This document shows positions 8,620 to 24,132 of a stretch of DNA of 64,000 bases, one piece after another (the stretch's first letter is position 1; each line of letters starts with the position of its first letter). This stretch comes from Achromobacter sp. AONIH1 (GTDB taxonomy: Bacteria > Pseudomonadota > Gammaproteobacteria > Burkholderiales > Burkholderiaceae_B): assembly GCF_002902905.1 (NCBI RefSeq), contig NZ_CP026124.1:4526001-4590000 (forward strand), read 5' to 3'. The position numbers and the translations under genes are program-made. The notes beneath the pieces are model-generated. The model made no database searches and was not told the origin of the DNA. It saw only the letters and a list, made by a program, of their open reading frames with translations.

Positions 8620-9396
8620 TTATTTGTCGACGAACGCGCGTTCCACCACGTAGTCACCCGGCTGTCCCACACCCGGGGACACGGTGAAGCCGCGCGCGTC
8701 CAGCATGGCGCTGATGTCGGCCAGCATATGCGGGCTGCCGCAGATCATGGCGCGGTCGGTCTCGGGGTTGATCTGGGGAATGCCGATGTCCTGGCAGAGT
8801 TTGCCGTTTTCCAGCAGTTCGGTGATACGGCCCTGATTGCGGAAAGGCTCGCGCGTGACGGTCGGGTAATAGACCAGCTTGTCGCGCACGATCTCGCCAA
8901 AGAATTCGTTATTGGGCAGCTCGTTGCCGATGAAGTCGGCATAGGCCAGCTCGCTGACCCAGCGCACGCCGTGGACCAGGATGACCTTGTCGAAGCGTTC
9001 GTAGACGTCCGGATCCTTGATGATGCTCATGAAGGGCGCCAGGCCGGTGCCGGTGCCGAACAGGAACAGGTGCTTGCCGGGCTTGAGGTCGTCGACCACC
9101 AGCGTGCCGACGGGCTTGCGGCTGACCAGGATGGTGTCGCCTTCCTTCAGATGCTGCAGCCGCGACGTCAGCGGGCCGTTCTGCACCTTGATGCTCAGGA
9201 ACTCGAGGTTTTCTTCGTAGTTCGCGCTGGCGATGCTGTAGGCCCGCAGCAGCGGCTTGCCTTCGACTTCCAGGCCGATCATGACGAAGTGGCCGTTGTG
9301 GAACCGCAAGGCCGCGTCACGCGTGGTGGTGAAGGAGAACAGGGTGTCGTTCCAGTGGTGCACGCTCAGCACGCGCTCAGTATTGAAAGCAGCCAT
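8620..9396 (-). CDS. fpr: Ferredoxin/flavodoxin-NADP(+) reductase
   Basis: A 258-aa FNR of the bacterial subclass that moves electrons between NADPH and ferredoxin or flavodoxin. The FAD-binding motif RAYSIAS and the NADP-binding motif GTGTGLAP are present, as is CGSPHM near the C-terminus; the C-terminal end YVVERAFVDK is typical of the short bacterial enzyme. It is divergent from the iron transporter fbpABC across a region with two Fur-box-like sequences, which suggests iron-linked control. A bidirectional terminator follows it. Confidence 0.92.
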   Translation of the reverse strand: MAAFNTERVLSVHHWNDTLFSFTTTRDAALRFHNGHFVMIGLEVEGKPLLRAYSIASANYEENLEFLSIKVQNGPLTSRLQHLKEGDTILVSRKPVGTLVVDDLKPGKHLFLFGTGTGLAPFMSIIKDPDVYERFDKVILVHGVRWVSELAYADFIGNELPNNEFFGEIVRDKLVYYPTVTREPFRNQGRITELLENGKLCQDIGIPQINPETDRAMICGSPHMLADISAMLDARGFTVSPGVGQPGDYVVERAFVDK

Positions 9397-9545
9397 GTCG
9401 TATCAATTATGGGCGGTTCGGCGTTGCCGGGCTTGCGGCCCGTCCGCGCTCCGCGAGGATGGTTTCCGAGCCGCACTCAAAAGCTGGCAAGAGTGAAAAG
9501 GCGGCGGTCGGCATTAGGGTTGACCCTATTCTACAGGGTCTCGAT

Positions 9546-9564
9546 GATAATTGCTCTCATTATT
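9546..9564. promoter_or_regulatory. Fur-box-like site 1
   Basis: GATAATTGCTCTCATTATT matches 13 of 19 positions of the Fur consensus and keeps both outer half sites (GATAAT and CATTAT). It lies about 150 bases upstream of fpr and 200 upstream of fbpA. Confidence 0.55.
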
Positions 9565-9662
9565 CCGTAATACGCTTATGCCGTATTGATGGGGATCAAG
9601 CGCCGGTCACACCTCCTTACGCGCAGTTGAACGGTGGAAATCTTCCTGGTATCGTCGCACTT

Positions 9663-9681
9663 CCATTTGATAATCATTTTC
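9663..9681. promoter_or_regulatory. Fur-box-like site 2
   Basis: The central TGATAATCATT is identical to the core of the Fur consensus, 13 of 19 positions in all. It lies 87 bases upstream of the fbpA start in otherwise GC-rich DNA. Confidence 0.6.
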
Positions 9682-9767
9682 GTTATGCGGCCAGGCCATG
9701 TGCTCAGGCCGCAGGCACACCTCGCAGGAAGGCAGCCCTTCCCGCGCCCTCTTGCCGGAGTTGTTTC

Positions 9768-10811
9768 ATGTCCAAGCGTCCCCAACTGAATTCCCTGCTG
9801 CGCGTCCTGGCCCTGGCCGGCGCCGCCGCCTTCGCCGTGCAGGCCCAGGCCGCCGAGGAAGTCAGCCTCTACACCACCCGCGAGCCCAAGCTGATCCAAC
9901 CGCTGCTGGACGCCTTCACTAAGGAAAGCGGCATCAAGGTCAACACCGTCTTCGTCAAGGACGGCCTGCTCGAGCGGGTCAAGGCCGAAGGCGCCAAGTC
10001 GCCGGCCGACGTGCTGATGACCGTGGACATCGGCAACCTGCTGGACCTGGTCGACGGCGGCGTGACCCAGCCGGTCAAGTCCGAAACGCTGGAATCCGTC
10101 ATCCCCGCCAACCTGCGCGGCGCCGACGGCAAGTGGTACGCCCTGTCGCTGCGCGACCGCGTGCTGTACGTCGAAAAAGACCTGAAGCTGGAATCCTTCC
10201 GCTATGAAGACCTGGCCGATCCCAAGTGGAAGGGCAAGGTCTGCATCCGCTCCGGCCAGCACCCCTACAACACCGCGATGATCGCCTCCATGATCGCGCA
10301 CGACGGCGCCGAAGCCACCGAGAAATGGCTGCGCGGCGTGAAGGCCAACCTGGCCCGCAAGGCCGCCGGCGGCGACCGCGACGTGGCCCGCGACATCCTG
10401 GGCGGCATCTGCGACATCGGCCTGGCCAACGCCTACTACGTGGGCCACATGAAGAACGCCGAAGCCGGCACCGACGCCCGCAAGTGGGGCGACGCCATCA
10501 AGGTGATCCGTCCGACCTTCGCCAACGCCAAGAGCGGCGGCACGCACGTCAACGTCAGCGGCGCCGCCGTGGCCGCGCATGCGCCCAACAAGGCCAACGC
10601 CATTAAACTGCTGGATTACCTGGTGTCCGAGCCCGCCCAGGCGCTGTATGCCCAGGCCAACTATGAATACCCAGTGCGCAAGGGCGTGAAGCTCGACCCC
10701 GTGATCGCCAGCTTCGGCGAGCTCAAGATCGACCCGCTGCCCCTGACCGAAATCGCCAAGCATCGCAAGCAGGCCAGCGAGCTGGTCGACAAGGTCGGCT
10801 TCGACAACTGA
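9768..10811 (+). CDS. fbpA: Iron(III) ABC transporter periplasmic binding protein
   Basis: A 347-aa FbpA/FutA-type ferric-ion binding protein. It has a signal peptide ending in AVQAQA (about residue 28), then VSLYTTREPKLIQPLLDAFTKESGIKV, the family N-terminal block. The downstream ANAYYVGHM segment contains the adjacent tyrosines that coordinate Fe(III). It is followed by a matching permease and ATPase. The start at 9768 follows CGGAG; an in-frame extension to 9459 crosses the Fur region and is not credible. Expression is probably repressed by Fur with iron. Confidence 0.9.
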   Translation: MSKRPQLNSLLRVLALAGAAAFAVQAQAAEEVSLYTTREPKLIQPLLDAFTKESGIKVNTVFVKDGLLERVKAEGAKSPADVLMTVDIGNLLDLVDGGVTQPVKSETLESVIPANLRGADGKWYALSLRDRVLYVEKDLKLESFRYEDLADPKWKGKVCIRSGQHPYNTAMIASMIAHDGAEATEKWLRGVKANLARKAAGGDRDVARDILGGICDIGLANAYYVGHMKNAEAGTDARKWGDAIKVIRPTFANAKSGGTHVNVSGAAVAAHAPNKANAIKLLDYLVSEPAQALYAQANYEYPVRKGVKLDPVIASFGELKIDPLPLTEIAKHRKQASELVDKVGFDN

Positions 10812-10821
10812 TGCACGGTGG

Positions 10822-10918
10822 CCGCGCCCTCGGGCGCGGCTCCGGCGCGCGGTCCCGGCGGTCTCCAGGCCTGCCCTCGCCCGCCCCGGCTCCATGCCCG
10901 GCGGACGACGGCAGGCCT
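10822..10918 (+). repeat. Two hairpins in the fbpA-fbpB spacer
   Basis: CCGCGCCC/GGGCGCGG (10822-10839, two-base loop) and a perfect 9-bp inverted repeat AGGCCTGCC/GGCAGGCCT (10867-10875 and 10910-10918). Neither has a U-tract, so they more likely protect the fbpA 3' end or reduce fbpB expression than fully terminate. Confidence 0.55.
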
Positions 10919-10977
10919 TGCCGCTCAGGAAGCCGGACGCGCCGGACGCCAGAACTTGAAGCTATCGACGTACAAGC

Positions 10978-12648
10978 ATGCACACTGAATCCCTGTCCCG
11001 GCCGCTGCGGCTGCGCTGGACGGAACGCGGCGCCGGCTGGCTCGCCGGCGCCGCCCTGATTGCCCTGGCGGTGCTCGCGCCGCTGCTGACCCTGGGCTGG
11101 TGGGCGCTGGGCGGCGACCTGGCCCATTGGCAACACCTGGCCAGCTACGTGCTGCCCCAGGCGCTGGCCAACACCCTCATCCTGCTCGCCGGCGTGGGCG
11201 CGCTGGTGGCCCTGCTGGGCACCGGCTCGGCCTGGCTGGTGACCGCCTACGAGTTCCCCACGCGCCGCACGCTGACCTGGGCGCTGCTGCTGCCGCTGGC
11301 CGTGCCCACCTACATCATCGCCTTCGCCTACCTGGACCTGCTGCATCCCATCGGCCCCATCCAGACCGGCCTGCGCGCCATCCTGGGCTACGACAGCCCG
11401 CGCCAGTTCCGCCTGCCCGACCTGCGCTCGATCCAGGGCGCGATCTTCGTGCTGGGCTTCGTGCTGTATCCCTATGTGTACCTGAGCACGCGCGTGATGT
11501 TCATGACGCAGGCCGCCAGCCTGCTGGAAGCCGCGCGCAGCCTCGGCGCCGGCCGCGCCGGCGTGTTCTTCCGGGTGGCGCTGCCGCTGGCGCGTCCGGC
11601 CATCGTGGTCGGCATGAGCCTGGCCCTGCTGGAAACGCTGAACGATATCGGCGCCTCGGAATTCCTGGGCGTGCAGACGCTGACCGTCTCGGTCTACACC
11701 ACCTGGGTCACGCGTTCCGACCTGGCCGGCGCGGCCCAGATCGCGCTGACCATGCTGGCCATCGTCGTCGGCCTGATCCTGCTGGAACGGCATGGACGCA
11801 AGCGCCAGCGCTACGCCAACACCCAGCGCATGCGCCCGATGCAGCCGCGCCGCCTGCGCGGTCCGGCGGCGCTGGTCGCCGCGGCGCTGGGCTGGATTCC
11901 CGTGCTGCTGGGCTTCGTCGCCCCTGCGCTGTACCTGGTGGTGGAAACCTACAAGCGCCTGCATCTGGTCGGCGGCGTGTCGGGCCAGTTGCTGGTCGGG
12001 CTGCGCAATACGCTGACCGTGGCCTTCTGCGCAACCGTCGTCACCCTGCTGTGCGGCCTGACCGTCGCCTGGGCCGGACGCACGCTGCGCGAAAGCGCCG
12101 CCTTCAATCCCGGACGCGCCTGCGGCCGCGTCGCCAGCCTGGGCTACGCCGTGCCCGGCACGGTGCTCGCCATCGGGCTGCTCACGCCCTTCGTCTGGAT
12201 CGACACCGCCGTGGGCCGCCTGTTCGGCGGCGGCGGTCTATTGCTGATGGGCTCCATGGGCGCGCTGGTGTGCGCCTATGCGATCCGCTTCCTGGCTATC
12301 TCCACCGGCGCCATCGAAGCGGGCCTGGCCCGCATTCCGCCGTCGTTGGAACAGGCGTCGCGCATGCTGGGCGAGACGTCCGCCGGCACGCTGCGCCGCG
12401 TCCACTTGCCGCTGCTGCGCCCGGCCCTGGCGGCCAGCGCGCTGCTGGTGTTCGTAGACGCCATGAAGGAACTGCCCGCCACCCTGCTGCTGCGCCCGAT
12501 GAACTTCGACACGCTGGCCACCTGGCTGTACGCCGAGGCGGCCCGGGGCACCTACGAGGAAGGCGCGGTCGCCGCGCTGGCCATCGTGCTGGCGGGCCTG
12601 TTGCCCGTCATCCTGCTGGCGCGCACCAATCTGAAAATGGGACATTGA
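10978..12648 (+). CDS. fbpB: Iron(III) ABC transporter permease
   Basis: A 556-aa fused inner-membrane permease with two homologous halves of about six transmembrane segments each. Each half carries an EAA loop: EAARSLGAGRAGVFFRVALPLARPA and EQASRMLGETSAGTLRRVHLPLLRPA. This arrangement is typical of the FbpB/SfuB iron family. It lies between fbpA and fbpC. Its stop overlaps the likely fbpC start. The 166-base spacer after fbpA contains two strong hairpins that may set a lower dose of permease relative to binding protein. Confidence 0.9.
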   Translation: MHTESLSRPLRLRWTERGAGWLAGAALIALAVLAPLLTLGWWALGGDLAHWQHLASYVLPQALANTLILLAGVGALVALLGTGSAWLVTAYEFPTRRTLTWALLLPLAVPTYIIAFAYLDLLHPIGPIQTGLRAILGYDSPRQFRLPDLRSIQGAIFVLGFVLYPYVYLSTRVMFMTQAASLLEAARSLGAGRAGVFFRVALPLARPAIVVGMSLALLETLNDIGASEFLGVQTLTVSVYTTWVTRSDLAGAAQIALTMLAIVVGLILLERHGRKRQRYANTQRMRPMQPRRLRGPAALVAAALGWIPVLLGFVAPALYLVVETYKRLHLVGGVSGQLLVGLRNTLTVAFCATVVTLLCGLTVAWAGRTLRESAAFNPGRACGRVASLGYAVPGTVLAIGLLTPFVWIDTAVGRLFGGGGLLLMGSMGALVCAYAIRFLAISTGAIEAGLARIPPSLEQASRMLGETSAGTLRRVHLPLLRPALAASALLVFVDAMKELPATLLLRPMNFDTLATWLYAEAARGTYEEGAVAALAIVLAGLLPVILLARTNLKMGH

Positions 12649-13433
12649 ACATCTTGTCGTCCGATCTGCTCGAAATCGACCATATCTCGCTGGCCTACGA
12701 CACGCCCAAGGGCGTGCGCGACGTGGTGCGGGACCTGACGCTGTCGCTGCCCGCCGGCCACATCGGCTGCCTGCTGGGCGAATCCGGCTGCGGCAAGACC
12801 ACAGTGCTGCGCGCCATCGCCGGCTTCGAACCGCTGCGCGCCGGCCGCATCCTGCTGGACGGCACGGTCATCTCCACCCCGGACATGCAGGTCGCGCCCG
12901 AGTCGCGCCGGGTCGGCATGATGTTTCAGGACTACGCGCTGTTCCCGCACCTGACGGTGGCGCAGAACGTGGCTTTCGGCCTGCGCAGGCTGGACCGCGC
13001 GGCGCGCGCGCGGAGAGTCGAGGAAATGCTGGAACTGGTGGGGCTGAACCATGCCGCTGCCAGCTATCCGCACGAGATCTCCGGCGGCCAGCAGCAGCGC
13101 GTGGCGCTGGCCCGGGCGCTGGCGCCCTCGCCCGAGCTGCTGCTGCTGGACGAGCCTTTCTCCAACCTGGACGTGGACACGCGCGAGCGGCTGGCCTTCG
13201 AGGTGCGCGAGATCCTGAAGGCCACCGGCCACACCGCCATCCTGGTCACGCACAATCAGGCCGAGGCCTTCGCCATCGCCGACCGCATCGGCGTGATGAG
13301 CAAGGGCCGCATCGCGCAGTGGGACACGCCATACAACCTGCATCATCACCCGGCCGACGCCTTCGTGCGCGACTTCATCCGCAGCGAGGCGCTGGAAGAG
13401 CAGCGCGAGCAGGTCTTCGCGCGCGGCCGCTGA
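12645..13433 (+). CDS. fbpC: Iron(III) ABC transporter ATP-binding protein
   Basis: A 262-aa ABC ATPase with Walker A GESGCGKTT, Q-loop MMFQDYALFPHL, signature SGGQQQR, Walker B LLLLDEPFSNLD and switch His in LVTHNQAEA. No ATG lies near the start of homology; TTG at 12645, overlapping the fbpB stop as TTGA, or TTG at 12654 are the plausible starts. It energises uptake through FbpB. It is shorter than many FbpC proteins because it has only a minimal C-terminal domain after the nucleotide-binding domain. Confidence 0.9.
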   Translation: MNILSSDLLEIDHISLAYDTPKGVRDVVRDLTLSLPAGHIGCLLGESGCGKTTVLRAIAGFEPLRAGRILLDGTVISTPDMQVAPESRRVGMMFQDYALFPHLTVAQNVAFGLRRLDRAARARRVEEMLELVGLNHAAASYPHEISGGQQQRVALARALAPSPELLLLDEPFSNLDVDTRERLAFEVREILKATGHTAILVTHNQAEAFAIADRIGVMSKGRIAQWDTPYNLHHHPADAFVRDFIRSEALEEQREQVFARGR

Positions 13434-13440
13434 ACGCAAC

Positions 13441-13474
13441 GCGGGCGGCCAGGACCAGGGTCCGGGCCGCCCGC
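13441..13474. terminator. GC-rich hairpin after fbpC
   Basis: GCGGGCGGCC pairs with GGCCGCCCGC around a 14-base loop between convergent fbpC and the Bug gene. It lacks a T-tract, so terminator function is plausible but not proven. Confidence 0.45.
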
Positions 13475-13519
13475 GCGAACGGCGCGCCCATCCAGGCCGC
13501 CGTCACTTCCGTCCCGGCG

Positions 13520-14497
13520 TCAATCCGCCGACAGCTTCACCTTCTGCGACAAGGCCTTGAAGGCCTCGTGCTGGCTGCGCGTCAGCTTTTCCACCTCTTC
13601 CGGCGTCGAGCCATACGGCATGAAGCCCGCCTGCTCCAGCTTGATCTTGACCTCGGGCATGGCCAGCGCGGCCTGGAAGGCCTCGCTCAGGGTCTTGGTG
13701 ATCTCCGGCGGCATCTTGGCGGGACCATAGACCGCGAACCACGGATCGACCACGGCCGCGCCATAGCCCAGCTCGGCCAGCGTCGGCACGTCCGGTAGAG
13801 CCGGCGCGCGCTTGCTGCCGGTCACGGCCAGCGCGCGGACCTTGCCCGACTTGATATGCGGCAGCGAGGCCGGCAGGTTGTCGAACATGATGGGCAGATG
13901 GCCGCCCAGCAGATCGTTGATGCCTTGCGCGCTGCCCTTGTAGGGAATGTGCTGCATGCCGGCGCCGGTCAGCTGATCGAACATCACGCCCGCCAGATGC
14001 ATCGACGTGCCCGTTCCCGGCGTGCCGAACGCGGTGCCCGGATGCTGCTTGGCATAGGCGACCAGATCCTTGACGCTGTCGACCTTGATCGAGGGGCCGG
14101 TCTCCAGCACCACCGAGGACGCGCCCAGCATGCTGATGCCGGTGAAGTCCTTGGTCGGATCGAACGGCATCGACGGATAGACGAAGGGATTGAGCGCATT
14201 GGTGGAAATGGCGCCGAAGCCGATGGTGTAGCCGTCCGGCGCGGCCTTGGCCACGGCGTCCATGCCGATGTTGCCGCCCGCGCCCGGACGGTTCTCGACG
14301 ATGACGGGCTGGCCCAGTTTCTCCGCGACCTTCTGGCCCGCGGTGCGCGCCACCAGATCGGTGGTGCCGCCCGCGGTGTAGGGCACGATGAATACGATGG
14401 GCTTGGCCGGATAGCCGGCGGCCTGCGCGGCGGCCGCGCCGTGGACCAGCGCCAGCGCGGCCAGGCCGCGCAGCGCGCTCAAGGTAAAGCGTTGCAT
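13520..14497 (-). CDS. Orphan Bug/TctC-family solute-binding protein
   Basis: A 325-aa tripartite tricarboxylate receptor. Signal peptide ends at AAAAQAAG (about residue 27); family blocks are YPAKPIVFIVPYTAGGTTD, PVIVENRPGAGGNIG, HIPYKGSAQGINDLLGG and LPDVPTLAELG. The ligand is unknown; the pocket Asp/carboxylate contacts typical of the family are in the TAGGTTD loop. It stands alone between convergent fbpC and the divergent RtcB-PrfH region, with no membrane subunits nearby. Confidence 0.88.
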   Translation of the reverse strand: MQRFTLSALRGLAALALVHGAAAAQAAGYPAKPIVFIVPYTAGGTTDLVARTAGQKVAEKLGQPVIVENRPGAGGNIGMDAVAKAAPDGYTIGFGAISTNALNPFVYPSMPFDPTKDFTGISMLGASSVVLETGPSIKVDSVKDLVAYAKQHPGTAFGTPGTGTSMHLAGVMFDQLTGAGMQHIPYKGSAQGINDLLGGHLPIMFDNLPASLPHIKSGKVRALAVTGSKRAPALPDVPTLAELGYGAAVVDPWFAVYGPAKMPPEITKTLSEAFQAALAMPEVKIKLEQAGFMPYGSTPEEVEKLTRSQHEAFKALSQKVKLSAD

Positions 14498-14845
14498 GAT
14501 GTCTCCATCCCGTTGTTGTCTCGCGGCGATCGCGTTGTGCTCGATGCCGGAGGCGCATCATACTGCGCGGCGCCAGCCCTGGCCGCGCCGCGCGCACGCG
14601 CGCACTGTGGCGCAATTCATACGTATTGACGCGCATGAGGCCCTGGCTTGCCGCAACCGCGAGACAGGCCGCGAAGTTCAATGATAGAGTTGCGCTCTTT
14701 CCGGCCTGACGCCCGCGCAACGCCCCTTATCGGCGCCAACGAACGTCCGCCGAGGAAGCCGCGCCGCGCACGCCACCCACGCCACGTATGGCCATCCGCG
14801 CGACGTCCTCACCCCCATCAACCGAACTGCACAGGAGGAATCATC
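14498..14845. other. Intergenic stretch before the RtcB leader
   Basis: A gap of 348 bases divergent from the Bug gene. No convincing gene, terminator or consensus sigma-54 site was found. It should hold the promoters for the Bug gene (minus) and for the RtcB leader (plus), but none could be placed with confidence. Confidence 0.4.
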
Positions 14846-14896
14846 ATGCAACAACAACAGACTTCCCGCCTTGCAGGCCGCGTCCAGCCCGACTGA
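14846..14896 (+). CDS. Short ORF with strong ribosome binding site (16 aa)
   Basis: ATG at 14846 follows ACAGGAGGAATCATC, one of the strongest Shine-Dalgarno sequences in the window, and encodes MQQQQTSRLAGRVQPD before TGA. It is too small for a domain. Directly after it lies a CTTGCCG/CGGCAAG hairpin. It lies 224 bases upstream of rtcB on the same strand. It may be a leader peptide, or the remnant of a longer gene; there is no family match I can name. Confidence 0.4.
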   Translation: MQQQQTSRLAGRVQPD

Positions 14897-14902
14897 ATTC
14901 TT

Positions 14903-14925
14903 CTTGCCGCAGACTAGCCGGCAAG
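14903..14925 (+). promoter_or_regulatory. Hairpin after the short leader ORF
   Basis: CTTGCCG pairs with CGGCAAG around a nine-base loop just after the TGA of the 16-aa ORF. Its place between a well-translated short ORF and rtcB is that of an attenuator, though no U-tract follows. Confidence 0.35.
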
Positions 14926-14991
14926 ACATTCGCACTGCCCTGGTCCGGTCCTGCCATACAGGGTCTTTCATACGCATCACGCCCGCACGGC

Positions 14992-15006
14992 CACTGCCTG
15001 GCAGTG
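14992..15006. promoter_or_regulatory. Perfect 7-bp palindrome upstream of rtcB
   Basis: CACTGCC-T-GGCAGTG, a perfect inverted repeat with a one-base centre, 114 bases upstream of the rtcB start. Possible operator or RNA hairpin. Confidence 0.35.
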
Positions 15007-15119
15007 CGCCGCGATCGCCGCGTCCGCGCCATACGCCGCGCCGGTGAGCCGTGGCCGCGCCTTGCGGCACCGATGCCGATGGAAGCAAGCCCTTTCCAAG
15101 ACCTGATTATGGAAATTCC

Positions 15120-16256
15120 ATGGGCAATTGCATTCAAGCACTGTCCGAGCGCGTCACGCTGATCGCCTCGGACGACACCTGGATCGAAGGCAACGCGATC
15201 CAACAACTACACACGACCGCCAGGCTCGCCGGCATGCGCCGCGTCGCCGGCATGCCCGACCTGCATCCGGGTCGCGGCTATCCGGTGGGCGCCGCCTTCT
15301 TCTCCACCGGACGCCTGTACCCTGCCCTGATCGGCGGCGATATCGGCTGCGGCATGTCGCTATGGAGCACCGGCATCGACGCCCGCAAGGCCGCGACGGC
15401 CAAGCTGGAAAAGCGGCTCGGCGATATCGACGGACCGCTGGATGACTGCTGGCAGCCGCTGGTGGACGAGCTGGCGCCCGCCGATGTCGGCCATCGGCAG
15501 GCGCTGGGCACCATAGGCGGCGGCAACCACTTCGCCGAATTGCAGCGCATCGACACCGTCTGCGACCCGCAGGCGGTCGACGCGCTGGGGCTGGATCTGG
15601 ACCGACTCGTCCTGCTGGTCCACAGCGGGTCGCGTGGCCTGGGCCGCGCCATCCTGGAAGAGCATGTCCAGCGGCACGGCCACGACGGCCTTGCCGAAGA
15701 CAGCGCTGATTGCCAGGCCTACCTGGCCCGGCACGACGCCGCCCTGCGCTACGCCCAGGCCAACCGGCAGTTGGTCGCTCGCCGCATGCTGGACCGGCTC
15801 GGCACGGAAGGCGAACAGGTGCTGGACGTGCACCACAACCTGGTCACGCGCGCCGAGGTCCAGGGCGAACGGGGCTGGCTGCACCGCAAGGGCGCCACGC
15901 CGTCCGATGGCGGGCTGGTCGTGATCCCGGGCTCGCGCGGCGACTTCAGCTATCTGGTGGCGCCGGTTCCCAGCGCGGCCAGCCTGTACTCGCTGGCGCA
16001 TGGCGCGGGCCGCAAGTGGATGCGCAGCGAGTGCAAGGACCGGCTGTTCAAGCGCTACAGCCCCGCGCAACTCGCCAAGACCCGGCTGGGCAGCCACGTC
16101 ATCTGCGAGGACAAGCAGCTGATCTACGAAGAAGCGCCCGAAGCCTACAAGCCGGTGGACAGCATCATCGCCAGCCTGGAACAGGCCGGCCTGCTGACGG
16201 TGCTGGCCAAACTGCGCCCGGTGCTGACCTACAAGACCCGGGGAGGATGCTGCTGA
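15120..16256 (+). CDS. rtcB: RtcB-family RNA ligase, PrfH-associated type
   Basis: A 378-aa RNA ligase that joins 2',3'-cyclic phosphate (3'-phosphate) and 5'-OH ends with GTP and Mn2+. Signature blocks: [26 protein letters not shown] with the metal-binding Asp and Cys, [27 protein letters not shown], and [12 protein letters not shown], whose His is the guanylylated nucleophile. At 378 aa it is shorter than the roughly 408-aa E. coli RtcB, as in the RtcB2 type linked to PrfH. It ends in Cys-Cys. The start at 15120 follows TATGGAAATTCC; an extension to 15051 is less likely. It overlaps prfH, and no rtcA or rtcR gene is present. Confidence 0.92.
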
Positions 16257-16879
16257 TGATCCTGCTGCAACTATCCTCGGCCCAGGGGCCGGACGAGTGC
16301 TGCCTGGCGGTGGCCAAGGCGCTGGCGCGACTGTCGCGCGAAGCGCAGGCACGCTCGGTCGATGTGGACATAGTCGAAAGCGAAAGCGGCGGCAAGGCCG
16401 GCACTTACCGCTCCGTGCTGCTGAGCCTGGACGGCGACGGCGCGGCGTCGCTGGCGGCGAACTGGGAGGGCTCGATCCAATGGACCTGCCCCAGCCCTTA
16501 CCGTCCGTCCCATCCGCGCAAGAACTGGTTCATCGGCGTCTTGCGCTGCGAAGCGCCCGCGCCCAGCCTGGCCGCCGACATACGCTTTGAAACGACACGC
16601 TCGTCCGGACCTGGCGGCCAGCACGTCAACAAGACGGAATCCGCCGTGCGCGCCACGCACGTCGCCACCGGCATCAGCGTGAAGGTACAGACCGAGCGCA
16701 GCCAGCATGCCAACAAGCGCCTCGCCGTGCTGTTGATCGCGCATCGGCTGGCCAGCCACGAGCAGGCGCGGGACGCGGCGCAACGCGCCCGCCGCCGCCA
16801 ATTCCATCATGAGGTGGAGCGCGGCAGTCCAAAGCGGGTGTTCAAGGGCGCCGCCTTCGAGCCGGCCGACGGCGCGTAG
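16256..16879 (+). CDS. prfH: Peptide chain release factor homologue PrfH
   Basis: A 207-aa class I release factor homologue. It retains the GGQ peptidyl-tRNA hydrolysis loop ([18 protein letters not shown], about residue 125) and the following HHEV/RVFKG basic tail, but lacks the stop-codon recognition motifs of RF1/RF2 (PxT or SPF). PrfH-RtcB2 pairs are known to rescue ribosomes cut in the 16S decoding centre: PrfH frees the stalled peptide and RtcB reseals the rRNA. The start overlaps the rtcB stop (TGATG), with GGGAGG nine bases upstream; ATG 16247 sits too close to that site. The coupling implies one functional unit. Confidence 0.9.
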
Positions 16880-17003
16880 TCCGCGCCCAGGCGTCTTGCA
16901 CAGGCGTGAAACGGCCGGGACGCGAGTCACCGGCCGTTTTTTCAAAACGGTCAGCCCCTCTGCGGCAGGCGCACGCTGTACAGGGAAGCATCTCTCATGC
17001 CCG

Positions 17004-17909
17004 TCAGGCCTTGGGCGGCGGCAAGGGAATGAACTCCGTCTCATCGCCCGGCACCGTCTGGCCGAAACGATCGCGCTGCCAGTCCTCTTTGGCCTGCTCG
17101 ATGCGATCCTTGCTGCTGGACACGAAGTTCCACCAGAGGAAGCGGGGACCGTCCAGCGGTTCGCCGCCCAGCACCGCGTAGCGCGCATCGCTCACCGCGC
17201 GGATCTGCACCGGCCTGCCCGGCGCGAACACGACCAGGCGGCCGCTTTCGAACACCTGCCCCTCGACCTCGATCGAACCCGTGGCCAGATAGGCCGCGCG
17301 CTCTTCATGCTCGGCCGGCAGCACCAGGGTCGAGCCCGCGCGCATCTGGATATCCCCATAGAACAGCGGCGACAGCGTCTTGACGCTGGAAGTCTTGCCG
17401 AACAGCTCGCCGGCCACCACCTGGGCGCGCACGCCCTCGCCTTCCACCACCGGCTGCGCGTCCAGCCCGTAATGGACGAAACCGGGATCGGTCTCCTCGT
17501 GCTGCTTGGGCAGCCCCACCCAGATCTGCAGGCCACAGAGCCGCTGATCAGCCTGCCGGCTTTCGGGCGACGAGCGCTCCGAGTGCACGATGCCCCGGCC
17601 CGCCGTCATCCAGTTCACCTCGCCCGGCAGGATGGTCTGCGTATGCCCCGCGCCATCGCGATGCACCATCGACCCTTCGTACAGATATGTGACCGTGGAC
17701 AGCCCGATATGCGGATGCGGCCGCACATCGATGCCGCTGCCAGCCCTGAATTCGACCGGCCCCATATGATCCAGGAACACGAAAGGCCCGACGGTGCGCT
17801 TCTGCGCCGAAGGCAGCGCCCGCCGAACCTCGAATCCGCCCAGATCGCTGCTGCGCGGCACCACCACCGTTTCAATCTGGCTCGCGCCGTCATCAGACAA
17901 GGTCGTCAT
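17004..17909 (-). CDS. Pirin family protein (long form)
   Basis: A 301-aa bicupin of the pirin family. The metal-binding N-terminal cupin shows VRPHPHIGLSTVTYLYEGSM and AGRGIVHSE, giving the three-His/one-Glu ligand set; a second cupin domain occupies roughly residues 170-280. Some pirins act as quercetin 2,3-dioxygenases or as redox-sensing regulators; which applies here cannot be told. The start at 17909 (MTTLSDDG) has GGGAGAG at suitable spacing; ATG 17915 is an alternative. It is the second of two tandem pirins, separated by a copy of the dispersed repeat. Confidence 0.85.
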   Translation of the reverse strand: MTTLSDDGASQIETVVVPRSSDLGGFEVRRALPSAQKRTVGPFVFLDHMGPVEFRAGSGIDVRPHPHIGLSTVTYLYEGSMVHRDGAGHTQTILPGEVNWMTAGRGIVHSERSSPESRQADQRLCGLQIWVGLPKQHEETDPGFVHYGLDAQPVVEGEGVRAQVVAGELFGKTSSVKTLSPLFYGDIQMRAGSTLVLPAEHEERAAYLATGSIEVEGQVFESGRLVVFAPGRPVQIRAVSDARYAVLGGEPLDGPRFLWWNFVSSSKDRIEQAKEDWQRDRFGQTVPGDETEFIPLPPPKA

Positions 17910-18008
17910 GGTCATCTCTCCCATTTGAATCCTGCAACCACATTCCATCTTAGTAATACCCGACACCACACGCCACCCATCAACAGTGGCACGCCCTCCC
18001 CCCATCGG

Positions 18009-18077
18009 GGCCGCACGGATCCGGCTCTGCCGGTCCGTAGCGGCGCCCCTGGGGGAAGCGCGCAGCGCTCGGGGGGG
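18009..18077 (-). repeat. Dispersed multi-hairpin intergenic repeat, copy 2
   Basis: Begins within three bases of the upstream pirin stop (18081) and reads on the minus strand as CCCCCCGAGCGCTGCGCGC, then a shortened CCCCCAGGGGC hairpin and CCGGCAGAGCCGG. Same orientation relative to its gene as copies 1, 3, 5 and 6. Confidence 0.8.
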
Positions 18078-18080
18078 CCT

Positions 18081-18779
18081 CTACTTCAAGTCAAACACCA
18101 GCACTTCGGCGTCCTTGCCGTTCGACAGCTTCACGGCGACCTCATCGCTGAGCGCCAGCGCGTCGCCGGCCTTCAGCGTCTGGCCATTGGCGACGATCTC
18201 GCCCCGGGCCACGTGCACCCAGGCACGACGCCCCGCCGCCAGCGGCAGCTCGGCGCTTTCATCGCCGTCGAACAGGCCCGCATACAGCCGCGCGTCCTGA
18301 TGGATCTTCATCGAGCCCTCGGCGCCATCCGGCGACACCAGCGCCTGCAGGCGGCCGCGCTTCTGCGCATCGCTGAATTCACGCTCCTCGTACTCCGGCG
18401 CGATGCCGGCCACGTCAGGCTCGATCCAGATCTGCAGCAGATGCGTTTCGGCATCCGGCAGCGGGTTGAACTCCGAATGCAGCACACCCCGGCCCGCGCT
18501 CATGCGCTGCACGTTGCCCGGCCGGATGGTCGAGCCGCTGCCCATGCTGTCCTTGTGGGCGACGGCGCCGTCGAGCACATAGGTGATGATCTCCATGTCG
18601 CGGTGCCCATGGGTGCCGAAACCGCGACCCGCGGCGATGCGGTCATCGTTGATCACGCGCAGCGCGCCGAAGCCCATGTGCGCCGGATCGTAGTAGTTGG
18701 CGAAGGAAAAGGTGTGGAACGAGTCGAGCCAACCGTGGTTGGCGTGGCCCCGTTCGGCGCTGCGGCGGATGGTAAGCAT
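18081..18779 (-). CDS. yhhW: Pirin family protein, YhhW type
   Basis: A 232-aa pirin, the length of E. coli YhhW, which has quercetin 2,3-dioxygenase activity in vitro. The N-terminal cupin carries GTHGHRDMEIITYVLDG and SAGRGVLHSEFN, supplying the His/His/His/Glu metal ligands; the second cupin covers about residues 140-230. It starts after CAGGAGTCAGCC. It is divergent from a LysR regulator, 163 bases away, which is the likely controller. The 3' end abuts a dispersed repeat. Confidence 0.85.
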   Translation of the reverse strand: MLTIRRSAERGHANHGWLDSFHTFSFANYYDPAHMGFGALRVINDDRIAAGRGFGTHGHRDMEIITYVLDGAVAHKDSMGSGSTIRPGNVQRMSAGRGVLHSEFNPLPDAETHLLQIWIEPDVAGIAPEYEEREFSDAQKRGRLQALVSPDGAEGSMKIHQDARLYAGLFDGDESAELPLAAGRRAWVHVARGEIVANGQTLKAGDALALSDEVAVKLSNGKDAEVLVFDLK

Positions 18780-18941
18780 GGCTGACTCCTGTTTCAATAA
18801 AATGAATGGTTGTGACGTACCTTCTGGCGGGAATCGCCGTGCGGTTTCTGGCTGCACAACCGGCATGAGTGATATTCTGCGCCTGATGGCGGCCGGTTTT
18901 GTCGCCCGTTTTTGAAGACAACGTTCATAAATTTTGAATGC

Positions 18942-19874
18942 ATGGTCATGACCCCGCTCTCCCAGCCCATCACTCCCGAGCTGCTGACCCTGGTGGACGC
19001 CATCGCGCGCCACGGCAGCTTCGCCAAGGCCGCCCGCGAACAGGGCAAGGTACCCTCGGCCGTGACCTACGCCATCCGCAAGCTGGAGGACGGGCTGGAC
19101 GTGCTGCTATTCGACCGCAGCGGGCAGCGCGCACGGCTCACCCCGGCCGGCGAGGCGCTGCTGCGGGAAGGCCGCCACCTCCTGCAATCGCTCGACGACC
19201 TGGCCTGCCGCGTCAAGCGGATCGCCACGGGCTGGGAGGTGGAGCTGCGCATCGCCGTCAGCGCCGTGCTGCCCTGGCGCCCGCTGTATGACCTGATCGA
19301 GGAATTCCAGGCGCTGGGCAGTGCCACCGCGCTGCGTTTTTCCACCGAGGTGCTGAGCGGCAACTGGGACGCGCTGACCTCCGGCCGCGCCGATCTGGTC
19401 GTCGGCGCGGGCGCGGCCGGCGAGCCGACCGGTCCGTATCGCTCTCAGGCCATGGGCCAGGTGCAGTTCGCGTTCTGCGTGGCCGCCAGCCATCCGCTGG
19501 CGTCGCTGGACCGCCCGCTGGGCCCGGCCGATCTGAACCGCTATAGCTCGGTGGTGGTGGCCGATACCAGCCGCGGCCTGCCGCCGCAGACGCGCGGGAT
19601 CCTGTCGGAGCAGCCCGTGCTGGTCATGCCCACGATGCAGGCCAAGATTGACGCGCAGGTGCGCGGCCTGGGCTGCGGCTATCTGCCGGTGACGCTGGCC
19701 GCGCCGTATCTGGCGCAAGGCCTCCTGACGATCTGCGAGACGGAGGAAGGCATGCCCCTGACGGAGCATGTGGCCTACGCGTGGCGCGCGGAGCCGCCGG
19801 GCGAGGCATTGAAGTGGTGGCTGGAAAAGCTCAAGTCGCCCCGGCTGTGCGAAAGCCTGCTCGGGCTGGGTTGA
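18942..19874 (+). CDS. LysR-family regulator divergent from pirin
   Basis: A LysR regulator of about 310 aa with helix-turn-helix FAKAAREQGKVPSAVTYAIRKLE (residues 28-50) and a C-terminal sensor domain ending in VAYAWRAEPPGEALKWWLEKL. Several ATG codons (18912, 18942, 18948) could start it; no clear ribosome binding site decides, and 18942 or 18948 best fits the usual length. Related divergent LysR-pirin pairs suggest that it controls the pirin genes, but the inducer is unknown. Confidence 0.82.
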   Translation: MVMTPLSQPITPELLTLVDAIARHGSFAKAAREQGKVPSAVTYAIRKLEDGLDVLLFDRSGQRARLTPAGEALLREGRHLLQSLDDLACRVKRIATGWEVELRIAVSAVLPWRPLYDLIEEFQALGSATALRFSTEVLSGNWDALTSGRADLVVGAGAAGEPTGPYRSQAMGQVQFAFCVAASHPLASLDRPLGPADLNRYSSVVVADTSRGLPPQTRGILSEQPVLVMPTMQAKIDAQVRGLGCGYLPVTLAAPYLAQGLLTICETEEGMPLTEHVAYAWRAEPPGEALKWWLEKLKSPRLCESLLGLG

Positions 19875-19901
19875 AGGCGGGCGCGATGCCGCGCCCGTGC
19901 C

Positions 19902-21403
<1,502 letters not shown>

Positions 21404-21404
<1 letters not shown>

Positions 21405-22468
21405 CAGTGTGCGGGCTCCATCGGAAGGACCAGGCGGAACTCGGTGCGCCCGGGCCGGGATTCGAATTCGATGATGCCGCCGTGCTGCTGCACGAAGTCC
21501 TGAGCCAGGCTCAGGCCCAGTCCCGTGCCGCCGGCACGGGCTGTCACCAGCGGATGGAAAATGCGGTCGCGGATGTGCTCGGGCACGCCCGGACCGTTGT
21601 CAATGATCGAGAGCACCAGCGCCAGCCGGTGCTGCCGGTGCGCCAGCATGACCTGCCTCGCCACCCGCGTGCGCAGCGTCACCAGGCCATGCTCCACGCC
21701 GGCGTCCCTGGGACGCGCCACCAGTTCCTGCGCGGCGTTGCGGGCCACGTTCAGCACCGCCTGCATCAGCCGGGCCGCATCGCCCTTCAGGTCGGGCACG
21801 GAAGCGTCGTAGTCGCGCAGCAGCGTGATCTCGTCGCGAAACTCGGCCTGTATCAGCGCGCAGACGCGCTCGCAGATCTCGTGGATGTTCACCGGCCGCG
21901 CGTTCAGCGGCACGCGCTGCGGTCCGCTCAGGCGGTCCACCAGCGCCTGCAGGCGGTCGGCTTCGGAAATGATGACCTGGGTGTACTCGGCCAGCGCCGC
22001 GTTGGGCAACTCGGCCTCCAGCAACTGGGCGGCGCCGCGCAGGCCGCCCAGCGGATTCTTCACTTCATGCGCGAGATTGCGCAGCAATTCGCGGTGCGCC
22101 TCGATCTCCTCGACCAGGCGATGACTGCGATCGGCCAGCACGCGCTGCTCGATCTCGCGCGCCTCGATCAGCACGGGCCAGCGCTGGCCCGTCAGCCCGA
22201 CGGTCGTGACCGACACTTCCACCGATTCCATGGCGCGGCGCAGGAACGCCAGCTGCCTGACGTCGGCATAGCGGCCGCCGGCGGCGCGATCGATGGAGGA
22301 CTGTATGTGCTCGGGGCTGTCGAACAGCGTGGCGGCCGACTGCCCGCACAGCTGCTTGCGCGACCGCCCGAACAGATCCTCGGCGGCGGCATTGGCGTAT
22401 TCGATGTGGCCGCGCCCGTTCACCAGAAAAACGGACGTGGCGAGCAGGTCTAGAGCTTCTACATTCAT
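21404..22468 (-). CDS. ntrB: Nitrogen sensor histidine kinase NtrB
   Basis: A 354-aa soluble two-component kinase. An N-terminal PAS domain (VFLVNGRGHIEYANAAAEDLFG) is followed by the H-box RNLAHEVKNPLGG, N-box ARNAAQ, and ATP-binding boxes DNGPGVP and GGTGLGLSLAQ. It phosphorylates or dephosphorylates NtrC according to PII (GlnB) state. The start at 22468 (MNVEALD) is the usual NtrB N-terminus; it lacks a strong Shine-Dalgarno sequence. It overlaps ntrC (TGATG) and lies 251 bases downstream of glnA, with two hairpin structures in the gap. Confidence 0.95.
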
Positions 22469-22520
22469 CTCAGTTACCCATCGCGCTACGCGCCACCCGC
22501 AACGCAAGAAATCAACACAA

Positions 22521-22576
22521 CTCCATCCGGAGCGCGGCAAAGCCGGCCAGGCCGGCCCGCCGCAAACCCGATGGAG
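22521..22576. repeat. Large inverted-repeat structure between glnA and ntrB
   Basis: Nested stems: CTCCATC/GATGGAG outside, GCGGC/GCCGC in the middle, and a perfect GCCGGCC-A-GGCCGGC core. It has no U-tract. In the glnA-ntrB transcript it would form a strong hairpin that may dampen read-through from glnA into ntrBC. Confidence 0.5.
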
Positions 22577-22637
22577 ACAAACGACTCAAGGGAGGAGACA
22601 ACGCCACGACTCGGCAGAGCCCTCCCCACCCCAGGCA

Positions 22638-22713
22638 GCGCGGAGCCGGCTTTGCCGGTCCGCTGGCTGCGCCCCCTTGAGGGGGAAGCGCCGAAGGCGC
22701 TTCGGGGGTGGGC
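22638..22713 (-). repeat. Dispersed multi-hairpin intergenic repeat, copy 3
   Basis: Starts about six bases after the glnA stop (22720) and reads on the minus strand as CCCACCCCCGAAGCGCC, then CCCCCTCAAGGGGG, and CCGGCAAAGCCGG. Three hairpins in a row, as in the other full copies. Confidence 0.85.
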
Positions 22714-22719
22714 GTCACC

Positions 22720-24132
22720 TCATAGGCTGTAGTACATGTCGAACTCGATCGGGTGCGTCGTCATGCGCAGACGGTTCACATCGCCCATCTTCAGGTCGAT
22801 GTAGGCGTTGAGCATGTCGTTGCTGAACACGCCGCCACGGGTCAGGAACTCGCGGTCCTTGTCCAGGGCTTCCAGCGCTTCTTCCAGCGAGGCGCACACG
22901 GTCGGGATCTTGGCGTCTTCTTCCGGCGGCAGGTCGTACAGGTTCTTGTCGGCCGGATCGCCCGGGTGGATCTTGTTCTGCACGCCGTCCAGGCCGGCCA
23001 TCATCAGGGCCGAGAAGGCCAGGTACGGGTTGGCCAGGGGGTCCGGGAAGCGCGCCTCGACGCGGCGGCCCTTCGGGTTGCCGACGTAGGGGATACGGAT
23101 CGAGGCCGAGCGGTTGCGGGCCGAGTAGGCCAGCTTGACCGGGGCTTCGTAGTGCGGAACCAGGCGCTTGTACGAGTTGGTGCCCGGGTTGGTGATGGCG
23201 TTCAGCGCGCGGGCGTGCTTGATGATGCCGCCGATGTAGTACAGCGCGAAGTCCGACAGGCCGGCGTAGCCGTTGCCCGCGAACAGGTTCTGGCCGTCCT
23301 TCCAGATGGACTGGTGCACGTGCATGCCCGAACCGTTGTCGCCGACGATGGGCTTGGGCATGAAGGTGGCGGTCTTGCCGTAGGCGTGAGCCACGTTATG
23401 AATGATGTACTTGGTGATCTGCGTCCAGTCGGCGCGCTGCACCAGCGTGCTGAACTTGGTGCCGATTTCCAGCTGGCCGGCGCCCGCCACTTCGTGGTGG
23501 TGCACTTCGACCGGCACGCCCATCTGTTCCATCAGCAGGCACATTTCCGAACGCATGTCCTGGAACGAATCGACCGGGGGCACGGGGAAGTAGCCGCCCT
23601 TGACCGAGGGACGATGGCCGGTGTTGCCGCCTTCGAAGTCCAGGCCGGTGGACCAGGAGGCCTCTTCCGACTTGATCTTGACGAAGGTGCCCGACATGTC
23701 GGTGTTCCAGGTCACGCCGTCGAACACGAAGAATTCGGGTTCCGGACCGAAGTAGGCGGTATCGCCCAGGCCCGAGGACTTCAGGTAGGCTTCGGCGCGC
23801 TTGGCCAGCGAGCGCGGATCGCGGTCATAGCCCTTCAGGTCCGAAGGTTCGACCACGTCGCAGGACAGGATCAGCGTCGGCTCTTCGCGGAACGGATCCA
23901 TGTTGGCGGTGGACAGGTCGGGGATAAGCAGCATGTCCGAGGCTTCGATGCCCTTCCAGCCGGCGATCGACGAACCGTCGAAGGCTTGCCCGCTTTCCAG
24001 CTTGTCTTCATCGATCGCGCTCGTGGGCACGGACACGTGGTGCTCGCGGCCCACGGTGTCGGTAAAGCGGAAGTCGACGAATTTGACTTCGTTGTCGGCG
24101 ATCTGTTTCAGGACGTCTTTCGGGCTTGCCAT
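22720..24132 (-). CDS. glnA: Glutamine synthetase type I
   Basis: A 470-aa GSI-beta that makes glutamine from glutamate, ammonia and ATP. The beta-grasp N-terminus ([20 protein letters not shown]), metal/ammonia-site motif [12 protein letters not shown]-site block [20 protein letters not shown], and the adenylylation site Tyr in NLYDLPPEE are all present, so activity is expected to be controlled by GlnE adenylylation. A perfect sigma-54 promoter and an NtrC site lie upstream. It is followed by a dispersed repeat and then ntrB-ntrC. Confidence 0.97.

Follow-up and report, generated by a model that had tools for sequence, protein, structure and literature searches.

Two adjoining genes on the forward strand of the window (the 64,000-nucleotide stretch of Achromobacter sp. 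AONIH1 DNA that was analysed) encode an RNA ligase and a release factor homologue. The first gene, rtcB2, occupies positions 15120 to 16256 (378 amino acids, ATG start, TGA at 16254-16256) and its product belongs to the RtcB2 / PRK09588 family. It lies directly 5' of prfH, which occupies positions 16256 to 16879 and encodes a peptide chain release factor H of 207 amino acids. The prfH start codon (ATG, 16256-16258) shares one base with the rtcB2 stop codon in a TGATG overlap at 16254-16258, and an earlier note on this DNA had placed both the pair and its overlap exactly. The RtcB2 protein scored 588 bits against NCBIfam TIGR03073 (cut-off 271.8) and the PrfH protein 313 bits against TIGR03072 (cut-off 166.65). 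In the PDB, PrfH matched best to 7sa4_8 (273.7 bits), whose chain name is Peptide chain release factor H.

The AONIH1 genome encodes three RtcB proteins, but it gave a single TIGR03073 match at E up to 1e-60. The window protein shares 66% identity with a P. aeruginosa-like homologue and 56% with the RtcB2 of one E. coli record, versus 32% and 35% with its own two paralogues. On these family scores and identities it was assigned to RtcB2 rather than RtcB1, in agreement with the earlier note. Nine checked RtcB residues (including C77, N136, H137, H168, H239 and H294) are identical in 84 of 84 other RtcB2 proteins (80 fetched loci plus L139, L146, L148 and L150), and the same nine are also kept in both RtcB paralogues of the AONIH1 genome. 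We take these conserved residues to be the metal- and GMP-binding ones. PrfH retains its GGQ motif, as the note had stated; the codon-recognition motif that it described as lacking is, however, changed rather than absent, since GP stands where GG is expected and SPYR at the 'anticodon'. This combination corresponds to the RFH signature described in the available portions of PMC1586002. Among the 79 PrfH matches of the other loci, GGQ was found in 78, GP in 77 and SxYR/K in 67.

Judged from its sequence, the window pair is an ordinary, good member of the known RtcB2-PrfH module, and the predicted role of its two products is to release ribosomes cleaved in the decoding centre and seal them again. 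The available text of PMC9223846 reports that the E. coli pair protects from colicin E3 and describes both peptide release from, and re-ligation of, colicin-E3-cut ribosomes. That protection and the two family scores, each above its cut-off, support the ribosome repair role proposed in the earlier note. The E. coli (ATCC 25922) operon resembles the window pair in both protein families, gene order and coupled start, although it belongs to another species, with the RtcB2 identity of 56% to one E. coli record given above. The note had also suggested a defence against toxins or contact-dependent inhibition. None of the 43 genomes of the genus matched the colicin-E3-type nuclease domain PF09000; the control genomes also gave no match, so this result is no evidence of absence.

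Genomic setting and distribution of the pair

No rtcA or rtcR adjoins the pair among the ORFs at 9000-24000, and to this extent the isolation described in the earlier note holds. The genome nevertheless carries both genes in a classic RNA repair cluster (rtcR, Ro60-like, rtcB, rlaP and rtcA) at L005:5000-11797 (G000:C1:3787001-3805000), about 745 kb from the pair. An RtcR-controlled rtcBA operon of this kind shares with the window locus an RtcB-family ligase and RNA repair, but differs in its RtcB1, its sigma-54 regulator RtcR and its rtcA. The third RtcB-family protein of the genome (472 amino acids, L006:8561-9979) has ABC-transporter-like frames on both sides within 18 kb.

The distribution of PrfH is sporadic. 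Matches above the cut-off were obtained in 10 of 81 genomes, comprising 9 of 43 in the genus (AONIH1 included), 0 of 6 others in the family and 1 of 32 in the order, and of 398 genomes surveyed across the phylum, 11 (AONIH1 among them) had an RtcB2 above its cut-off. In the 80 fetched loci, prfH succeeds rtcB2 in 79, and the 80th is cut by the contig end. In seven of the eight testable carriers within the genus (the window included) the pair sits at the same place, between the ABC transporter / tctC side and a pirin gene; in L043 it is located elsewhere, and the stretch of L016 is too short to tell. Inspection of 11 of the 34 non-carriers of the genus demonstrated that tctC adjoins the pirin gene in five, that no tctC is present there in three and that other genes are found in three, with no leader (see below), rtcB2 or prfH found in any of these 11 stretches. 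At the rtcB2-prfH site, L155, L158 and L164 carry other small gene sets near the pirin gene (an alpha/beta hydrolase, a short-chain dehydrogenase, a LysR regulator). A defence hot spot was considered for this site and dropped, because ten ORFs taken from it in three relatives gave ordinary families (hydrolase, dehydrogenase, LysR) or none.

The leader reading frame upstream of rtcB2

A leader ORF of 16 codons, MQQQQTSRLAGRVQPD, is located on the forward strand at positions 14846 to 14896, behind a Shine-Dalgarno sequence AGGAGG at 14833-14838. An equivalent precedes rtcB2 in 84 of 84 loci of our main set, which covers beta- and gammaproteobacteria and consists of the best 80 of 108 confirmed RtcB2 matches together with the window, L037, L039 and L042. 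A leader was defined as an ATG-initiated ORF of 10 to 22 codons within 350 nt of rtcB2. The length limits and extra Shine-Dalgarno patterns were chosen after viewing the data, and identical ones were used for the controls, in which 50 dinucleotide shuffles gave a mean of 1.6 (maximum 5) of 84 and the other gene starts of the same loci gave 6 of 269. The first scan had detected a Shine-Dalgarno-led short ORF in 79 of 80 loci, and the remaining one (L112) has such an ORF behind AAGGGGG. The leaders end 62 to 286 nt before rtcB2.

The eight other carriers of the genus encode leader peptides such as MQKQTSRLAGRA, MQNTMQQQTSHAAGRV, MQQQTSAVAGRV and similar. A separate sample of the phylum, not fully independent of the main set because L127 is by its length the record of L065, contained a leader in six of nine testable genomes other than AONIH1. 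Of the other three, L135 has a doubtful one and none was found in L132 or L134; L133 is cut and was left out of the nine. The E. coli, Proteus and Klebsiella-plasmid copies of the pair carry the leader, and none was seen at an alphaproteobacterial copy (L149). The Klebsiella copy (L148) lies on an IncC conjugative plasmid of Klebsiella pneumoniae, where rtcB2-prfH with its own leader adjoins sul1. An RtcB2-like protein was detected by tblastn in 28 records of the plasmid collection, 8 of them from Klebsiella. The E. coli copies also came from that collection; L126, used as a near-identity query against E. coli genomes, gave no match.

The only conserved part of the leader ORF is a short RNA segment, designated B (GCAGGCCG, positions 14873 to 14880, forward strand), which typically reads GCAGG after TTT or CTT. 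Its first base falls on codon position 2 in 52 rows, where it is read as L-C-R, and on codon position 1 in 32, where it is read as A-G, and 53 distinct leader peptides occur among the 84 loci. With two reading frames for B and such varied peptides, it is the RNA segment and not the peptide that is conserved, and a conserved arrest peptide was rejected on the same grounds. The start of B lies 22-43 nt downstream of the ATG and precedes the stop codon's last base by 11-24 nt, so a ribosome at the stop codon would cover it.

The window leader resembles the PA5471.1 type in being a Shine-Dalgarno-led ORF within the range of 12-20 codons that lies 5' of rtcB2 and has the B motif near its end. The available text of PMC3516279 and PMC13041342 describes PA5471.1 as a peptide of 13 residues, encoded about 250 bp upstream of PA5471, with glutamine and phenylalanine at codons 3 and 4. 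In the Pseudomonas-type locus L139 the leader, MIQFSTLCRLRLA, has 13 codons with Q3 and F4 and lies 254 nt 5' of rtcB2. This length, residue pair and distance fit the published PA5471.1. The PA5471.1-armZ-PA5470 arrangement, as represented by L139, therefore resembles the window locus in its short leader before an RtcB2 and PrfH pair and in having the same B motif. It differs in having been studied as an efflux regulator, with a structural model that is transcriptional in the published portions covered.

Covarying segments between the leader and rtcB2

All of the following segments lie on the forward strand. Segment A (CTGCACAGG, 14827 to 14835, with the whole element reaching 14838) overlaps the leader Shine-Dalgarno AGGAGG, and B lies within the leader ORF. 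Between B and C a local hairpin, TCTTGCCG...CGGCAAGA, is predicted at 14902 to 14926 and is present in the minimum-energy fold. Segment C (CGGTCCTGC, 14946 to 14954) pairs with B around one bulged base, and segment C' (CCATACAGGGTCTT, 14954 to 14967) pairs with D (AAGACCTGATTATGG, 15098 to 15112) at the rtcB2 ribosome-binding region. In the window the B:C helix consists of GCAGG:CCTGC plus CCG:CGG around the bulge and is present in the minimum-energy fold of 14828-15130. Taken overall, the fold of that region is not exceptional (z -1.59), since 8 of 100 shuffles were equally low. By sequence, the helix of C and D (14954-14967 with 15098-15112) would hide the rtcB2 ribosome-binding site.

The pairing of B with C is supported by covariation. 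Over the 84 rows, seven of seven positions are paired in 53, six in 29 and five in two. Of 161 positions in the 23 distinct combinations, 149 pair, compared with 137.9 upon permutation, and 1 of 20,000 permutations reached as high a value. Eleven of the 84 C anchors were placed by hand, and without these rows the result (116 of 126 versus 109.8; 31 of 20,000) is still better than permuted, but less so. With a single row drawn from each genus or group (20 draws over 27 groups), none of 40,000 permutations was as high. Examples of the compensated pairs are GCAGGTC:GGCCTGC, GCGGGTC:GGCCCGC, GCAGAGC:GCTCTGC and TCAGGCC:GGCCTGA. The second helix behaves similarly, with C':D partners such as GCCAATTC:GAATTGGT, GCCAATAC:GTATTGGT, GCCATTTC:GGAATGGC and CCGTTC:GAACGG. 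The mean C:D duplex energy is -9.6 to -10.0, against -7.1 to -7.5 for swapped partners, and 0 of 200 genus swaps were as good in each of 10 draws.

Both helices were also examined in a plain MAFFT alignment of 30 loci that was not fitted to structure. Ten of the 14 pairs are changed on both sides, a number reached by 0 of 500 shuffles, and 78.8% of cells are paired, versus 26-51% when the registers are slid by 1-3 columns. The A:B duplex energy beats all 200 genus-swapped sets in each of five draws, and A:B covariation is weak, its count of pairs changed on both sides being equalled or exceeded in 142 of 500 shuffles. In most clades B:C and C:D share no more than one or a few bases, and with so small an overlap their mutual exclusivity is weak. 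The clearest mutually exclusive version was observed in Undibacterium (L106, L108, L115 and L121), whose leaders have 20 codons and whose C is largely common to B and D. By eye, B:C and C:D are present in the E. coli records L146 and L147 (neither from ATCC 25922), which also have the leader. In L147 and L117, also by eye, a stretch CAACTTGAAGTATGACGAGTC lies between C and D, both of which are intact, as would result from the insertion of a short repeat. In the P. aeruginosa-like L139 the spacer is long and C:D, by eye, matches less well than in the other Pseudomonas rows, and its control level may differ from that of other leaders.

A model, R1, was built from the 30-locus alignment without any Achromobacter row. 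A search of the 6.65-Mb AONIH1 genome with R1 gave one match at E up to 0.01, at window positions 14827-14974 (34.4 bits, E 6.8e-5), and none, even at E up to 1, at L005 and L006, which hold the other two RtcB genes. Across 274 genomes it returned the window locus and two weak matches with E values of 0.0046 and 0.0068, roughly the number expected by chance in so many genomes, and no RtcB2 was present in the 1.7 and 3.2 kb examined around them. R1 misses some leader-bearing loci, such as L090 and L106. Rfam 15 at the gathering score gave no match in the window and three in 10 other loci, none of them at the leader.

A proposed attenuator and its alternatives

Translational attenuators of the ermC type combine a short leader ORF, alternative pairings, a hidden start of the main gene and a stalled ribosome as the trigger. 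The window locus has the short leader ORF and, by sequence, a helix over the start region of the main gene, and the switch between alternative pairings and the stalled-ribosome trigger are proposed for it. It differs in showing no sign of an arrest peptide, with conservation confined to an RNA segment, and in that it would control a repair module rather than a methylase. Our main reading, to which we give a probability of about two in three, is that rtcB2-prfH, the predicted decoding-centre repair pair, is under a 16-codon erm-like attenuator that raises expression upon ribosome stalling. When ribosomes finish the leader, B would be covered, C would pair with D and translation of rtcB2 would stay low. 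A ribosome stalled in the first leader codons would leave B free; B:C would then form, C:D would be weakened and rtcB2-prfH would be translated. PrfH would clear the dead ribosome before RtcB2 re-ligates the 16S rRNA, in steps published for E. coli, and the cut ribosomes themselves would be the inducing signal. We infer this route from an early stall through B:C to a freed rtcB2 start. The leader, which the earlier note overlooked, points to general ribosome stalling as the trigger.

Folding calculations were used to evaluate the direction of the switch. At equilibrium, the rtcB2 start had a mean unpairedness of 0.448 without a ribosome, 0.460 when a ribosome occupied codon 3 and 0.452 when it occupied the last codon. 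Early and late ribosomes thus did not differ; the early value was the higher one in 47 of 84 rows, and shuffled spacers behaved similarly. After this null result we carried out a further, post hoc test, which bears more directly on initiation and considers the cost of opening the rtcB2 start. This cost was 12.1 kcal/mol for a ribosome at the last leader codon and 9.2 for one at codon 3. A late ribosome raised it by more than 0.5 in 65 of 84 rows and lowered it by more than that margin in 15; of the 27 groups, 17 were up and 8 down by more than 0.3. Six shuffled-spacer draws gave means of -0.2 to -0.7. The effect in the window itself is small (9.57 early, 10.68 late), and the largest predicted group effect, 9.0 kcal/mol, belongs to the Undibacterium leaders. 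Taken with the null accessibility, the opening cost in 65 of 84 rows supports the direction of the switch, but not strongly, and the switch may act on translation, transcription or both.

The unchanged equilibrium accessibility also suits a different explanation, transcription attenuation or Rho-dependent termination as for PA5471.1, in which leader translation would end the transcript, stalling would cause read-through and C:D would be secondary. The model published for P. aeruginosa is indeed transcriptional in the available portions of PMC13041342 and PMC12057347, and such control of the window pair is possible, if doubtful. Consensus promoter and terminator scans of the window leader region gave nothing, however, with no terminator-like site in 14500-15140 (the window alone was scanned). 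The C:D helix moreover sits on the rtcB2 ribosome-binding region, and in the regions inspected D almost reaches the start codon with no T-run behind it. That RtcB2 in the genus acts mainly as ArmZ does, with anti-repressor activity towards a MexZ-like repressor of an RND pump and not as a repair ligase, is unlikely. The window protein is 66% identical to its P. aeruginosa-like counterpart and resembles it in a C-terminal stretch, and Achromobacter xylosoxidans has a close MexXY homologue (available text of PMC3516279). Both points are compatible with such a role, but the nine ligase residues are kept in 84 of 84 RtcB2 proteins, prfH follows rtcB2 in 79 of the 80 fetched loci (the other being cut by the contig end), and the E. 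coli pair gives resistance to colicin E3 (PMC9223846, portions covered). Quite improbable is a plain RtcB2-PrfH module whose leader has no regulatory role or merely raises translation via re-initiation, as proposed for leader genes in the available part of PMC4833913, for the protein pair is ordinary by family scores but the leaders end 62 to 286 nt 5' of rtcB2, B, C and D covary, and the P. aeruginosa leader is regulatory in the published work covered.

In the published portions covered, P. aeruginosa is the one organism for which induction by ribosome stalling on such a leader is described. Ribosome-targeting drugs induce armZ there through PA5471.1, with PA5470 on the same message, and ArmZ rises in PA5471.1 mutants whose leader translation ends or stalls early, as the attenuator model would also expect. 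The available text of PMC12057347 describes ArmZ as an RtcB-like RNA ligase, names PA5470 as prfH and regards leader-peptide control of an anti-repressor as seemingly unique to MexXY. A rise of prfH under tobramycin in P. aeruginosa biofilm is cited in the covered part of PMC13159725, and prfH appears in a table of the tobramycin section in that of PMC8120321. For E. coli, ykfJ is reported as inducible by 4-azaleucine (PMC3516279, available text). Hit 98 among the candidate RNA switches of a 2015 computational screen (PMC4448311, in the portions available) is a stretch whose centre lies 102 nt upstream of the E. coli prfH-ykfJ operon. Outside Pseudomonas, this hit is the closest earlier lead to the element. 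The words 'leader' and 'upstream' are absent from the main text of PMC9223846 as available, and PMC1586002 and PMC6514570 describe the operon with no leader mentioned in the portions covered. Our literature search, whose scope did not include Morita 2009 (the PA5471.1 paper) or Burroughs and Aravind 2016, found no paper extending a PA5471.1-type leader to RtcB2-PrfH generally. Among the matches listed outside the P. aeruginosa efflux field, none concerned RtcB2-PrfH induction save the uncharacterised E. coli screen entry.

The new part would thus be the leader attenuator, a widespread cis element tying ribosome repair to stalling, of which PA5471.1 would be the one studied case. It offers an RNA element without an Rfam 15 match, and its conservation and covariation provide a concrete, reporter-testable answer to how RtcB2-PrfH is turned on. 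We suggest tentatively, and at somewhat under even odds, that beta- and gammaproteobacteria share a ribosome-damage sensor built into the mRNA, in which cut or drug-stalled ribosomes in the first leader codons would switch on their own repair and the antibiotic induction of MexXY would be a later efflux rewiring. The leader joins two literatures, those of ribosome repair after colicin E3 and of aminoglycoside-inducible efflux, and if this suggestion is true, MexXY induction would gain an evolutionary origin.
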